Source: Azospirillum cavernae
Lineage (GTDB): Bacteria > Pseudomonadota > Alphaproteobacteria > Azospirillales > Azospirillaceae
Length of the DNA stretch: 64,000 nucleotides
Assembly (NCBI RefSeq): GCF_003590795.1
Contig: NZ_QYUL01000003.1
Coordinates: 62,001 to 126,000 of the forward strand
Direction: 5' to 3'
Shown: positions 38,999 to 51,720 of the stretch, piece by piece
Layout of the letters: each line of letters opens with the position of its first letter
Numbering within the stretch: position 1 is the first letter of the stretch
Notes under the pieces: model-generated
What the model saw: the letters and a program-made list of their open reading frames with translations, nothing else
Told to the model about the DNA's origin: nothing
Databases searched by the model: none
Made by a program: the position numbers and the translations under genes

Positions 38999-39074
38999 TG
39001 GTGCCCAGGGACGGAATTGAACCGCCGACACGGGGATTTTCAGTCCCCTGCTCTACCAACTGAGCTACCTGGGC
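38999..39074 (-). tRNA. tRNA-Phe (GAA), copy 1
   Basis: Reading leftwards from 39074, the acceptor GCCCAGG, D-arm with AGCTCAGTTGGTAGAGC, anticodon stem-loop with CTGAAAA (anticodon GAA), T-arm GGTTCAATTCC and 3' CCTGGGCACCA form a complete 76-base cloverleaf. The CCA end is encoded (38999-39001). Identical to the copy at 39143-39218. Confidence 0.98.
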
Positions 39075-39142: not shown

Positions 39143-39218
39143 TGGTGCCCAGGGACGGAATTGAACCGCCGACACGGGGATTTTCAGTCCCCTGCTCTAC
39201 CAACTGAGCTACCTGGGC
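39143..39218 (-). tRNA. tRNA-Phe (GAA), copy 2
   Basis: A 76-base tRNA identical to the other copy, including the encoded CCA and anticodon GAA. It lies 68 bases upstream of copy 1 on the same strand, so both are probably cut from one precursor. They lie just downstream of yacG on the same strand and may be transcribed with it or from their own promoter; I see no clear promoter in 39219-39324. Confidence 0.98.
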
Positions 39219-48330: not shown

Positions 48331-48510
48331 AACTCTCTCCCTCGGATGAACCGCCGGGGCGCGGGGAGCGCCTCGGGTGAACCGCAGACGCGATAGATAG
48401 CACATTCCGCGCGCGCGTCACCTGCTGGTGTGGCGGGGCGGACCACAGGCAAATTAAACGTTTTAAAATTGTGTAAATGATGATTTCACATTTTTCATGC
48501 AAAAATCCTG

Positions 48511-48540
48511 TTGACGTAAACCCAACTCAACGAGTAGATA
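48511..48540 (+). promoter_or_regulatory. Probable promoter of the metNIQ leader transcript
   Basis: TTGACG (48511-48516), 18 bases, then TAGATA (48535-48540), within a locally AT-rich stretch. Transcription would begin near 48547, just before a G/C hairpin (48549-48573, one mismatch) and the riboswitch. The hisG promoter probably lies in the AT-rich 48420-48500 part. Confidence 0.6.
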
Positions 48541-48570
48541 AAACCCATCGGGCCGCCCAAGGGGGGCGAC

Positions 48571-48624
48571 CCGCGCGGCAATTTGAATTCAGCAGCTTGC
48601 GCCGCGTCACCAAACGCTAAAGCG
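48571..48624 (+). promoter_or_regulatory. SAM-II-type riboswitch upstream of methionine uptake genes
   Basis: The P1 stem pairs CGCGGC (48574-48579) with GCCGCG (48601-48606). Its loop contains AATTTG followed by GCTTGC, and the 3' part reads CACCAAACGCTAAAGCG. ATTTG, CTTGC, and the 3' CGCTAAAG that makes the pseudoknot are the conserved elements of the SAM-II class known in alphaproteobacteria before methionine genes. A downstream hairpin CCACGA/TCGTGG (48625-48642) follows and may be the expression platform. The call is by eye, not by covariance model. Confidence 0.8.
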
Positions 48625-48666
48625 CCACGATGCCGGTCGTGGACCTCTGACCTGGAGAGACCGGAT

Positions 48667-48738
48667 ATGACCCTGATGACGACCCACCGACGGCCCAACC
48701 CCCGGCTTTGCGCCTGCGCCCGAATGTGTCGCCGCTGA
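48667..48738 (+). CDS. 23-residue Cys-rich leader peptide
   Basis: ATG 48667 has a strong ribosome site (GGAGAG, 7 bases upstream) and encodes MTLMTTHRRP, then NPRLCACARMCRR and a stop. It has three Cys in the last nine residues, among Arg, and begins with two Met. It lies between the SAM-II-like element and the next gene, and a long hairpin (48780-48815: CCCACG/CGTGGG with inner GACC/GGTC) sits between its stop and the next ribosome site. This is the layout of amino-acid-responsive attenuator peptides. Sensing of Cys or Met supply is an inference. Confidence 0.65.
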   Translation: MTLMTTHRRPNPRLCACARMCRR

Positions 48739-48832
48739 CCCCAGCGCCCGTTCGTCGCCCAGCCCTTACGCCATCATCGCCCACGCCGCTGACCCGAAAC
48801 GCCGGTCGCCGTGGGTTTGGGGAGCCATCGCC

Positions 48833-49033
48833 ATGACCACCGCCAACGCTTACGCCATCGAAGTTCAGGGGCATTCCGCCGGAATCGTCGTCGCCGACCG
48901 GGGCGGCTACACCTTTTTCGTCTCGGATTGGGCCTTCCGCGACCTGGATCGCCGGGTCTTCCGCAACGTCGGACAGGCCGAACGCGCCGCCAATCAGCAT
49001 TACAGCCGTTTGGCCAACAACCGCCGCCGTTGA
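48833..49033 (+). CDS. Hypothetical 66-aa protein in the met leader
   Basis: MTTANAYAIEVQGHSAGIVV begins a compact 66-residue protein with DRGGYTFFVSDWAFRDLD in the middle and an Arg-rich end (LANNRRR). There is no signal peptide or membrane segment, and I recognise no family. The ribosome site GGGGAG lies 8 bases before the ATG and just after a hairpin. Codon use is like that of neighbouring genes, which supports a real gene. It would be cotranscribed with metNIQ under the SAM-II-like element. Confidence 0.65.
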   Translation: MTTANAYAIEVQGHSAGIVVADRGGYTFFVSDWAFRDLDRRVFRNVGQAERAANQHYSRLANNRRR

Positions 49034-49053
49034 TTGACGTGCGCAAGGACCGC

Positions 49054-49158
49054 ATGGAAGACCCGACGATCAAACGCTTTATTGCGCTGTATCGTTCGCC
49101 CGAAGTGCGGCAGTTTGTCGAAACGCGCTTCAACGGCTCCATCATTCCGACATGGTGA
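49054..49158 (+). pseudogene. 34-aa ORF resembling the MetQ C-terminus (vestige or microprotein)
   Basis: ATG 49054, with AAGGA just upstream, encodes MEDPTIKRFIALYRSPEVRQ and then FVETRFNGSIIPTW. The real MetQ downstream ends in PWVAKLVKVYQSAEVKEFIL then TKFKNAVVPAW. Aligned end to end, about 10 of 32 positions are identical, including the Y-x-S-x-E-V core and the terminal P-x-W. It ends 44 bases before my metN start, and an in-frame metN ATG at 49152 overlaps its stop. The likely reading is a remnant of a duplicated metQ; a retained small peptide is the alternative. Confidence 0.6.
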
Positions 49159-49202
49159 AAGGGGCTGGGGGAGGCGTGACCTCCCCCTTTGCCGACCAAA
49201 AG

Positions 49203-50255
49203 ATGATAACGCTCACAAACCTTCAGAAGACTTTCCCCTCCCGTGGGGCGGGCGCGCCGGTCACGGCGCTGGCCGACATCGACCTGACCATCGAGCGGGG
49301 CGAGATTTTCGGCGTCATCGGGCGCTCCGGGGCTGGAAAATCCACGCTGCTGCGCACGATCAACCTGCTGGAAAGCCCCAGCTCCGGCAGCGTGCGGGTG
49401 GACGACGTCGAGATGACGGCGCTGTCCCCGAAGGAGCTGCGCGAGGCGCGTCATTCCATCGGCATGATCTTCCAGCATTTCAACCTGCTGTCCTCGCGCA
49501 CCGTGTTCGACAATGTGGCGTTGCCGCTGGAGTTGGCCGGGGTGGCCAAGCCGGTGATTCGCCAGACGGTGGAGCCGCTGCTCGATCTGGTCGGTCTGAC
49601 CGACAAGCGCGACCGCTACCCGTCGGAGCTGTCGGGCGGGCAGAAGCAGCGCGTCGGCATCGCCCGCGCGCTGGCCAGCAAGCCCAAGGTTCTGCTGTCG
49701 GACGAGGCGACCTCCGCGCTCGACCCGGAAACCACCACGCAGATCCTGCATCTGCTGGCCGACATCAACCGGCGGCTGGGCCTGACCATCGTCCTCATCA
49801 CCCACGAGATCGGCGTCATCAAGGAGATCTGCCACAAGGTCGCCGTGATGGAAGCCGGGCGGGTGATCGAACAGGGGCCGGTCTTCGACATTTTCGCCCA
49901 CCCGACCCACCCGACCACCCGCAGCTTCGTCGATCCGGTCATCAACCGGGGCATTCCCGACGGTCTGCGCGCGCGACTGTCGCCGACGCCGCAGCCGGGG
50001 GCCAACCCGGTGCTGCGCATCACCTTCACCGGCGAAAAGGCGACCAGCCCGGTCATCAGCGCCATCAGCCGTCAGTTGAACCTGGATCTGAACATCTGGC
50101 ACGGCCAGATTGACGAGATCCAGGGCGCGCCCTTCGGCACGCTGGTGGTCGAAGCGCTGGGCGATGACACCGCCGTCGAGGCGGCCATCAGCCTGCTGAA
50201 CGTCAATCATCTGGGTGTCGAGGTTCTGGGCTATGCTCTCCCCGCAAATCATTGA
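49203..50255 (+). CDS. metN: Methionine ABC transporter ATPase
   Basis: ATPase of the D/L-methionine importer, 350 residues from ATG 49203 (MITLTNLQKTFPS). Walker A GRSGAGKSTL, signature LSGGQKQRVGIARAL, Walker B VLLSDEATSALDPETT. The C-terminal NIL domain (VLRITFTGEKATSPVISAISRQLNLDLNIWHG) binds methionine and provides feedback inhibition. The start is by homology; no good ribosome site precedes it. ATG 49152, overlapping the stop of the upstream small ORF, would give 17 more residues by coupling. It overlaps metI by 23 bases. Confidence 0.96.
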   Translation: MITLTNLQKTFPSRGAGAPVTALADIDLTIERGEIFGVIGRSGAGKSTLLRTINLLESPSSGSVRVDDVEMTALSPKELREARHSIGMIFQHFNLLSSRTVFDNVALPLELAGVAKPVIRQTVEPLLDLVGLTDKRDRYPSELSGGQKQRVGIARALASKPKVLLSDEATSALDPETTTQILHLLADINRRLGLTIVLITHEIGVIKEICHKVAVMEAGRVIEQGPVFDIFAHPTHPTTRSFVDPVINRGIPDGLRARLSPTPQPGANPVLRITFTGEKATSPVISAISRQLNLDLNIWHGQIDEIQGAPFGTLVVEALGDDTAVEAAISLLNVNHLGVEVLGYALPANH

Positions 50256-50901
50256 TCTGCTCATCAAGGCGCTGATCGACACGCTGCACATGGTCGCGGT
50301 GTCGGGGGCCATCGGCACGCTGATTGGCCTGCCCATCGGCGTCGCGTTGGCCGTCACCGGGCGGGGCGAGCTGTTGCAGAATCTGGTCTTCAACCGGATC
50401 GTCGGGGCGGTGGTCAACATGACCCGCTCCACCCCCTTCATCATTCTGGTGGTGGCGATCATTCCCTTCACCCGGTTGATCGCCGGAACCTCCATCGGCA
50501 CCAGCGCCGCCATCGTGCCGCTGACCGTCGCGGCGGCCCCCTTCATCGCCCGCATCGTTGAAAACGCGATTCGGGAGGTGGATCGCGGCTTGATCGAAGC
50601 GGCCCAGGCGATGGGGGCCACCCCGTTCCAGATCGTCACCAAGGTTCTGCTGCCCGAAGCGATGCCCGCCATCGCCATGGGTCTGACCCTGTCGGCGGTC
50701 AGCCTGATCGGCTATTCGGCGATGGTCGGCGCGGTCGGCGGCGGCGGTCTGGGCGATCTGGGCATCCGCTACGGCTATCAACGCTTCCTGCCGGAAGTGA
50801 TGCTGGCGGTGGTCGTGGTGCTGATCGTGCTGGTGCAAATCGTGCAATCGACGGGCGATTGGATCGCCCGCCGCGTCAACAAACGACATCTGAAAGTCTG
50901 A
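50233..50901 (+). CDS. metI: Methionine ABC transporter permease
   Basis: Inner-membrane permease of 222 residues with about five hydrophobic helices (IGTLIGLPIGVALAV, PFIILVVAIIPFTRL and MLAVVVVLIVLVQIV). The coupling loop is EAAQAMGATPFQIVTKVLLPEAMPAIAMGLTLSAVSLIGYSAMVGAVGGGGLG, typical MetI. ATG 50233 (MLSPQIIDLL) is preferred, with GAGG upstream; GTG 50215 is possible. It is followed by metQ. Confidence 0.95.
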   Translation: MLSPQIIDLLIKALIDTLHMVAVSGAIGTLIGLPIGVALAVTGRGELLQNLVFNRIVGAVVNMTRSTPFIILVVAIIPFTRLIAGTSIGTSAAIVPLTVAAAPFIARIVENAIREVDRGLIEAAQAMGATPFQIVTKVLLPEAMPAIAMGLTLSAVSLIGYSAMVGAVGGGGLGDLGIRYGYQRFLPEVMLAVVVVLIVLVQIVQSTGDWIARRVNKRHLKV

Positions 50902-50913
50902 GGAGAGTTCGTG

Positions 50914-51720
50914 ATGCTGCGTATCCGTTCGCTGACGGCCCTGCTGGCCGGCGCCGCCACCGTCGCCATCGCCCTTGGCGCGCCTTTGGGCGCGGCGATG
51001 GCGGAAAGCCTGAAGATCGGCGTCACCCCCGGCCCGCACGCCCAGATTCTGGAAGTCGTCAAGCCGCTGGCCGCCAAGGAAGGCCTGGACCTTCAGGTGC
51101 TGGAATTCTCCGACTATGTGATCCCCAACCAAGCGCTGTCGCAGGGCGATCTGGACGCCAACTCGTTCCAGCATCAGCCCTATCTCGACAATCAGGTTCG
51201 GGATCGCGGTTACGAGATCGTCAGCGTCGCCAAGACGGTGGTTTTCCCCATCGGCATCTATTCCAAGAAGCTCAAGAGCCTGGACGATCTGGCCGTCGGC
51301 GACAAGGTCGCCATCCCCAACGACCCGACCAACGGCGGCCGCGTTTTGCTGCTGTTGCAGGCCAAGGGCCTCATCAAGCTGAAGGACGGCGGCACGCTGA
51401 AGGCCTCGCCCATCGACATCGTCGAGAATCCCAAGAAGCTCCAGATCGTCGAGCTGGACGCCGCGCAACTGCCGCGCTCGCTGGACGACGTGACGGCGGC
51501 GGCGATCAACACCAACTACGCCATCGAAGCGGGCATGGATCCCGTCAAGGACGCCATCGCGCGCGAGGCGGCGGAAAGCCCCTACGCCAACATCATCGCC
51601 GTCCGCAAGGCCGACAAGGACAAGCCGTGGGTGGCCAAGCTGGTGAAGGTCTATCAGAGCGCCGAGGTGAAGGAGTTCATCCTCACCAAATTCAAGAACG
51701 CCGTCGTTCCGGCCTGGTGA
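50914..51720 (+). CDS. metQ: Methionine-binding protein MetQ (NlpA family)
   Basis: Binding protein of about 268 residues with a signal sequence (LLAGAATVAIALGAPLGAAMA). There is no lipobox Cys, so it is probably a soluble periplasmic form. The mature protein starts ESLKIGVTPGPHAQILEVVKPLA, then VIPNQALSQGDLDANSFQHQPYLDNQ and KVAIPNDPTNGGRVLLLLQAKGLIKLKD, the NlpA/MetQ core. ATG 50914 follows GGAGAG; GTG 50911 is the alternative. Its last 29 bases overlap the convergent TPR gene. Confidence 0.96.
   Translation: MLRIRSLTALLAGAATVAIALGAPLGAAMAESLKIGVTPGPHAQILEVVKPLAAKEGLDLQVLEFSDYVIPNQALSQGDLDANSFQHQPYLDNQVRDRGYEIVSVAKTVVFPIGIYSKKLKSLDDLAVGDKVAIPNDPTNGGRVLLLLQAKGLIKLKDGGTLKASPIDIVENPKKLQIVELDAAQLPRSLDDVTAAAINTNYAIEAGMDPVKDAIAREAAESPYANIIAVRKADKDKPWVAKLVKVYQSAEVKEFILTKFKNAVVPAW

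Follow-up and report, generated by a model that had tools for sequence, protein, structure and literature searches.

The 64,000-nucleotide (nt) stretch of Azospirillum cavernae DNA analyzed here (the window) carries a metNIQ operon on its plus strand. Ahead of the operon lie an aptamer-like element resembling the SAM-II riboswitch (SAM, S-adenosylmethionine), a 3' hairpin designated P3, and a 23-codon open reading frame (ORF) with cysteine codons close to its stop. The comparison with other genomes indicates that this leader is real, conserved, and class-wide, and points to a SAM-II variant coupled to a Cys-ended leader peptide. An earlier note on this DNA had proposed that one leader combines a SAM-II-type element with a Cys leader peptide, and the comparison within Alphaproteobacteria strongly supports this. 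The note knew of no described case with both. None was found in the literature either, a weak result as the search was made mostly without subscription journals.

The aptamer-like element and P3 span 48574–48642 (coordinates refer to the plus strand unless stated otherwise). The conserved SAM-II core (AUUUG, CUUGC, and GCUAAA) and the P1 hairpin are present. P1 is formed by 48574–48579 with 48601–48606, and encloses the core strands AUUUGA (48581–48586) and CAGCUUGC (48593–48600). The third core strand, GCUAAAGC (48616–48623), is the 3' strand of the presumed pseudoknot P2 with GCUUGC. The element was found by pattern around metN in 35 genomes, the window included. Between the start of P1 and the last base of P3 lie 69 positions; 62 of them do not vary among these genomes, while the flanks drift. 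Covariation was assessed for 12 modelled pairs of P1 and P3 in 101 aligned matches. The share of paired cells was 95.4% in an alignment that was fitted to the covariance model and therefore favors pairing; slid controls dropped to 27–48%. Both-side changes occurred in 10 of the 12 pairs, and none of 500 shuffles did as well. Chance origin was rejected on the basis of conservation, covariation, and shuffles.

The SAM-II-like fold proposed in the earlier note was thus upheld by core, P1, and covariation, but not by the family score. The match to RF00521 (SAM_alpha, SAM-II) at 48565–48640 gave 17.9 bits, below the gathering cut-off of 36. Its E-value was 0.97 for 4 kb and 4227 families and 0.049 for 201 bases; division by 4227 yields a single-family value of about 2e-4 or less. 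The related model RF01726 reached 12.9 bits at the same site (cut-off 44). An ordinary metNIQ leader with a decayed SAM-II element and chance short ORFs would account for the sub-threshold score and for the decayed metQ that adjoins it. This account is scarcely credible: the invariance of the element between drifting flanks, the covariation, and the class-wide spread refute it, unless the conservation is unrelated to expression. On the minus strand, 48547–48638 matched the Caulobacter small RNA CC1840 (19.9 bits, cut-off 50), antisense to the aptamer, probably because hairpins read both ways.

The leader ORF (MTLMTTHRRPNPRLCACARMCRR, 48667–48738) is preceded by the Shine–Dalgarno (SD) sequence GGAG (48654–48657) and has Cys codons at positions 15, 17, and 21. 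The strong ribosome site and the three late Cys codons reported previously were confirmed, and only 0.035% of 20000 letter shuffles placed at least three Cys in the last nine codons. The synteny of the leader also held: a short ORF with an SD and Cys codons follows at similar spacing in 35/35 genomes carrying the element, and a gene of the 66-codon type comes next in 34/35. Among 180 non-redundant elements, a set weighted toward Azospirillum, the next ORF was short in 152 cases, and a long ORF followed directly in 28. ORFs were chosen mechanically. Several of the direct cases (L192, L214, L219, and L299) seem to be read in the wrong frame, and for a few short ORFs (L216, L221, and L242) the start is probably wrong. 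Cys fell within the last ten codons in 141 of the 152 short ORFs (two or more Cys: 120/152). The start lay 47–66 nt past GCUAAA in 138/141. In contrast, the same procedure applied to canonical SAM-II loci gave a short ORF in 0/28 and an ORF of at least 60 codons in 28/28; these controls were high scorers, drawn from 31 loci of which three did not fit the pattern. Some leaders are very short, with six codons in MTTCCP (L173 and L343) and MTCCCP (L289), and five in MTQAC (L295).

Codon statistics started from the short ORFs of at least six residues (150 of 152), which were thinned to 82 dissimilar ones. Cys made up 211 of their 2090 codons (10.1%). Shuffling the 82 ORFs yielded 68.6 ± 7.8 (about 3.3%), with a maximum of 93 in 500 runs. 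The excess is concentrated in the last eight codons, where Cys reached 23.9%, Arg 24.2%, and Met 8.3%. The earlier note had named Cys- or Met-tRNA charging; among the codons, Cys (together with Arg) stands out, but Met does so much less. The Arg content speaks for another explanation, in which the Cys codons serve RNA structure or the thiol or metal chemistry of the nascent peptide, and not the sensing of Cys-tRNA charging. The ORF end and the RNA past the stop also folded slightly better than with shuffled RNA in 30 of 44 cases, as a structural role would suggest. However, the Cys excess over these dissimilar ORFs is frame-specific (211 codons in frame against 118 and 40 out of frame), and many of the downstream genes supply sulfur. 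We regard a role outside tRNA charging as quite unlikely.

P3 (CCACGA/TCGTGG, 48625–48642) displayed both-side changes in 6/6 modelled pairs. It is mutually exclusive with an alternative anti-SD helix, in which CCGGTC (48633–48638) pairs with GACCGG (48659–48664). The fold energies in the window were −9.3 kcal/mol for P3 and −12.3 kcal/mol for the alternative helix. Complementarity was then compared over 28 representatives, a set without near-duplicates and without loci whose SD is weak or whose SD region overlaps P3. The loop and 3' arm of P3 formed duplexes with the SD region at a mean of −9.4 kcal/mol. Exchanging the partners resulted in −7.2 kcal/mol, and 0/5000 permutations reached the observed mean. 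The 5' part of P3, taken as a control arm, gave no signal (742/5000). A previous test on 56 representatives was dropped because the segments overlapped in some loci. Based on the complementarity between P3 and the SD region, we propose that the variant may control translation.

Of 61 relatives, 38 yielded a metN, and 36 of these belong to the genus. The two genus members of that set outside the 35 genomes (G010 and G033) have the element and the small gene sited away from metN. A covariance model (R1) built from 23 leader elements of the genus set matched 45/45 genus genomes and 72/82 family genomes, including the 23 from which it was built. Within the class, it matched 68/385 genomes in 44/276 genera; some of the weak matches can belong to SAM-II of the canonical or an intermediate type (e.g., G023:C185), and 68/385 is therefore an upper figure for the variant. 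Among the matches listed, the core pattern was found in Bosea, Chelatococcus, Microvirga, Labrys, Methylopila, and Alsobacter, and also in Inquilinus, Defluviicoccus, Pararhodospirillum, Niveispirillum, and Nitrospirillum. RF00521 matched 190 of the 385 class genomes, 167 above the cut-off. At the variant itself, its cut-off was reached in 1/19 loci (L200, 36.8 bits). Applied loosely to seven relatives, it gave 20.7–27.4 bits in five and was unlisted in two. A comparative survey placed SAM_alpha in 28 genomes, all from Rhizobiales or Rhodobacterales; the SAM_alpha targets given in the accessible part of that source do not include metNIQ (PMC4239095).

The genes behind the element are largely sulfur genes. 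The Pfam scan took 72 of 120 downstream proteins and pooled direct and short-ORF loci; the 48 left out were near-duplicates, chiefly from Azospirillum, and some doubtful frames. The counts were NIL (MetN-type) 11, Cys/Met pyridoxal-phosphate enzymes 11, NlpA/MetQ 9, SBP_bac_11 7, CysG dimeriser 6, NMT1_2 4, PAPS reductase 3, 1-Cys peroxiredoxin 3, nitrite/sulfite reductase 2, and TauD 1. We read SBP_bac_11 here as sulfate binding and NMT1_2 as sulfonate binding. According to Pfam and likeness, the element also stands directly before genes resembling those of a sulfate-binding protein, CysG, CysH, MetY/MetZ, and MetX. In some Azospirillum genomes the element and a Cys leader ORF occur a second time (L177–L179 and L180–L183), ahead of a gene that by likeness encodes an SsuA-like binding protein or else a TauD-like dioxygenase.

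The variant shares with SAM-II the P1 hairpin, the AUUUG/CUUGC/GCUAAA core, the occurrence in Alphaproteobacteria, and the sulfur genes. It differs in the extra 3' hairpin P3, which stands in place of P2a and competes with the anti-SD helix. A P2a helix of about 5 bp is reported for 60% of SAM-II in the accessible text of PMC6061858. By the same partial source, the short P2a and translational control are features in common with SAM-V (RF01826). RF01826 was unlisted in the window up to an E-value of 5 or 10, and in seven relatives up to 1. SAM-V and the sul1 motif were rejected, as neither was listed in the family scans of the window, the variant loci, and the relatives.

The short P2a with P3 in its place would also suit a SAM-II relative with a changed ligand, which would report another sulfur metabolite (one on the cysteine side, for instance), while the Cys leader would read the same state a second time. 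The lean of the regulon toward cysteine, sulfate, and methionine uptake goes in the same direction, as does the canonical SAM-II (68–72 bits) kept elsewhere in 25/25 genus genomes searched. In this genome it scores 70 bits and precedes a long ORF, which we take from its likeness to be metZ. A second SAM-II-like element upstream of the variant in 4/97 loci (L228, L236, L246, and L249) likewise speaks for a changed ligand. The paired elements lie at 335–431 and 474–575 in L228, and at 376–446 and 510–621 in L236; the upstream element of L236 reaches the RF00521 cut-off, a canonical match being shown for this locus only. On the other hand, AUUUGA, CUUGC, and GCUAAA are kept, and genes resembling metX, metY, and metZ likewise have variants of the core ahead of them. 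Moreover, tandem SAM-II pairs are known and, in the accessible part of PMC9481103, are explained by one ligand. That system has two sensors per leader in common with ours, but both sense SAM; the words leader peptide and uORF are absent from that paper. A changed ligand seems to us rather unlikely, though it is the most serious of the alternatives.

The leader stop is followed by a C-rich stretch (48739–48832, direct reading). It contains the long hairpin that the earlier note had correctly seen ahead of the 66-codon ORF (48780–48815, arms 48780–48785 and 48810–48815). Over the 60 nt that follow the stop, C outnumbered G in 60 of 67 representatives, most strongly in the first 45 nt. The stretch ahead of the leader ORF had no such lean (28/67). 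C-rich RNA past the stop and Cys codons just before it fit a stalled ribosome that shields a Rho loading site. A ribosome stalled at the stop codon of tnaC shields such a site. With tnaC-type Rho-dependent attenuation, the leader would share the stall by the stop codon and the masking of the RNA on which Rho loads; the difference is that here C-richness is what suggests the Rho part.

Compared with a Cys leader-peptide attenuator, the SD, the short ORF, and the clustered Cys codons are present, but an intrinsic terminator or antiterminator was not found in the leader. A close described example is the uORFC-8-2 motif, a Cys-codon attenuator before cysS in Rhodobacterales (PMC8632094). Both have a short Cys-codon ORF upstream of a cysteine-related gene. 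In the accessible part of that source, the tandem Cys codons of uORFC-8-2 are usually at positions 14–15, an intrinsic terminator follows, and no riboswitch ahead of the ORF is mentioned. Our leaders have Cys at the very end of the ORF and seldom a terminator-like hairpin.

We lean, by a little, toward two sulfur sensors in series, in which a SAM-II-variant gate acts on a cysteine leader peptide, and then on Rho. The comparison provides the aptamer-like core, P1 and P3, the anti-SD matching, the Cys-ended ORF, and the sulfur genes. For the ligand, the translation, the stalling, the sign of the response, and the Rho step, we infer the following course. P3 of the variant aptamer would compete with the helix that hides the SD of the leader ORF. 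Upon SAM binding, the short pseudoknot P2 would form and P3 would fray, so that its 3' side could pair with the SD and turn the leader ORF off. At low SAM, P3 would form and the leader ORF would be translated. Given enough Cys-tRNA, the ribosome would reach the stop and leave, the C-rich RNA would be exposed, and Rho would stop transcription. With little Cys-tRNA, it would halt just before the stop and cover the C-rich RNA, and the operon would be made. The operon (the 66-codon gene and metQ/metN/metI) would then be fully on only if SAM and cysteine were both short. If true, this would be a naturally occurring example of a metabolite riboswitch that acts through an amino-acid leader peptide. 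A wider proposal is that of a class-wide, unannotated SAM-AND-cysteine coincidence detector, in which P3 and the anti-SD helix, as the variant's own expression platform, would gate translation of the Cys peptide and Rho would gate the operons, including those of the unnamed small-protein family. We put this forward tentatively, leaning somewhat against it. The element is a candidate regulator for the uptake of methionine, sulfate, and sulfonates in numerous other genera.

Several observations weigh against the two sensors in series. The variant is mostly under the Rfam cut-off, and a P2a of at least five pairs is found in 27/28 canonical SAM-II loci but in 1/16 variant representatives. The P2 strands (UUGC with GC(U)AA) are complementary but invariant in the 35 genomes, and covariation therefore cannot probe their pairing. 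An anti-SD helix of six pairs is formed in just 16/28 representatives (chance 23%). As for the peptide, Cys is absent from the last ten codons of 11/152 short ORFs, and Arg is enriched at the ORF end as much as Cys. A third-position excess of change was not seen in the leader ORF (differences by codon position: 588/562/614 in 14 genomes, 127/183/60 in 11 genomes), nor was conservation of the peptide as a sign of translation. The Cys end, the start, and the SD are thus what argues for translation; a peptide that is free in sequence except at its end would fit this pattern. The base composition from which alone Rho involvement is suggested is non-specific, as C also exceeds G within the leader ORF (63/67) and at the start of the next gene (150 nt; 54/67). 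The attenuation proposed in the earlier note gained no support in its intrinsic-terminator form. Terminator-like hairpins occurred in 2/44 representatives (L237 and L278), any run of four T in 16/44, and no plus-strand terminator-like site was found in 48400–49300. Sequestering of the next gene's SD was also unsupported: the end of the leader ORF did not match it (597/3000 permutations were as good), and neither did the mid-spacer (2739/3000).

Upstream of the aptamer, the promoter-like pair noticed before (TTGACG, 18 nt, TAGATA; 48511–48540) is readable directly, and the TAG of its second hexamer is unchanged across the 35 genomes, but a strict sigma-70 scan did not recover it. The interval between promoter and aptamer holds a GC hairpin (48550–48572, direct reading), the arms of which differ from genome to genome; its stem is also listed on the other strand.

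Downstream, the 66-codon ORF (48833–49033) is present as described, but it is no orphan or leader debris. It is the first gene, and belongs to a conserved unnamed family of small proteins; a relative's version of the protein matched 71/82 family genomes. In the set used here the family counts 20 members, the window's and 19 representatives of 39. The family has no Pfam or NCBIfam model. The predicted structure contains three strands and two helices (pLDDT 92.4). No structural match was found in the PDB at E ≤ 0.001, and none by sequence better than E 0.47. Small proteins of about 60–100 residues with the motif A[FY]xIEV...AGIV...GFxFFA follow the Cys leader ORF in several alphaproteobacterial genera. 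Their genes often precede sulfur transporters (members are, e.g., L131, L170, L174, L259, and L287).

The 34-codon ORF that follows (49054–49158) was rightly called MetQ-like. It matches the end of PF03180 (positions 205–236; E 7e-5, 22.5 bits, cut-off 27). In four relatives the first MetQ is full-length; the ORF shares 88–94% identity with the C-terminus of these first MetQs and 30–33% with the second MetQs, which identifies it as a deletion remnant of the first metQ. The four relatives checked have a full metQ after the small gene, of which the window keeps the last 34 codons. Among the best 12 plasmid records, eight have an annotated MetQ under the match. The piece is a local deletion scar with no apparent regulatory role.

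The remaining genes agree with a MetNIQ operon, comprising a MetN with a NIL domain, a MetI, and a MetQ of the lipoprotein family. The assignment of metN (49203–50255) was supported by ABC_tran and NIL, but its start is more likely at 49203 than at that of the longer ORF, because TIGR02314 matches from residue 18 of the latter (430 bits, curated cut-off 499.7). It is followed by metI (50233–50901, PF00528) and by the intact second copy of metQ (50911–51720), which matches PF03180 with E 9e-100 and TIGR00363 above its cut-off. Elsewhere in the window, two adjacent tRNA genes lie on the minus strand at 39002–39074 and 39146–39218, with identical covariance scores.

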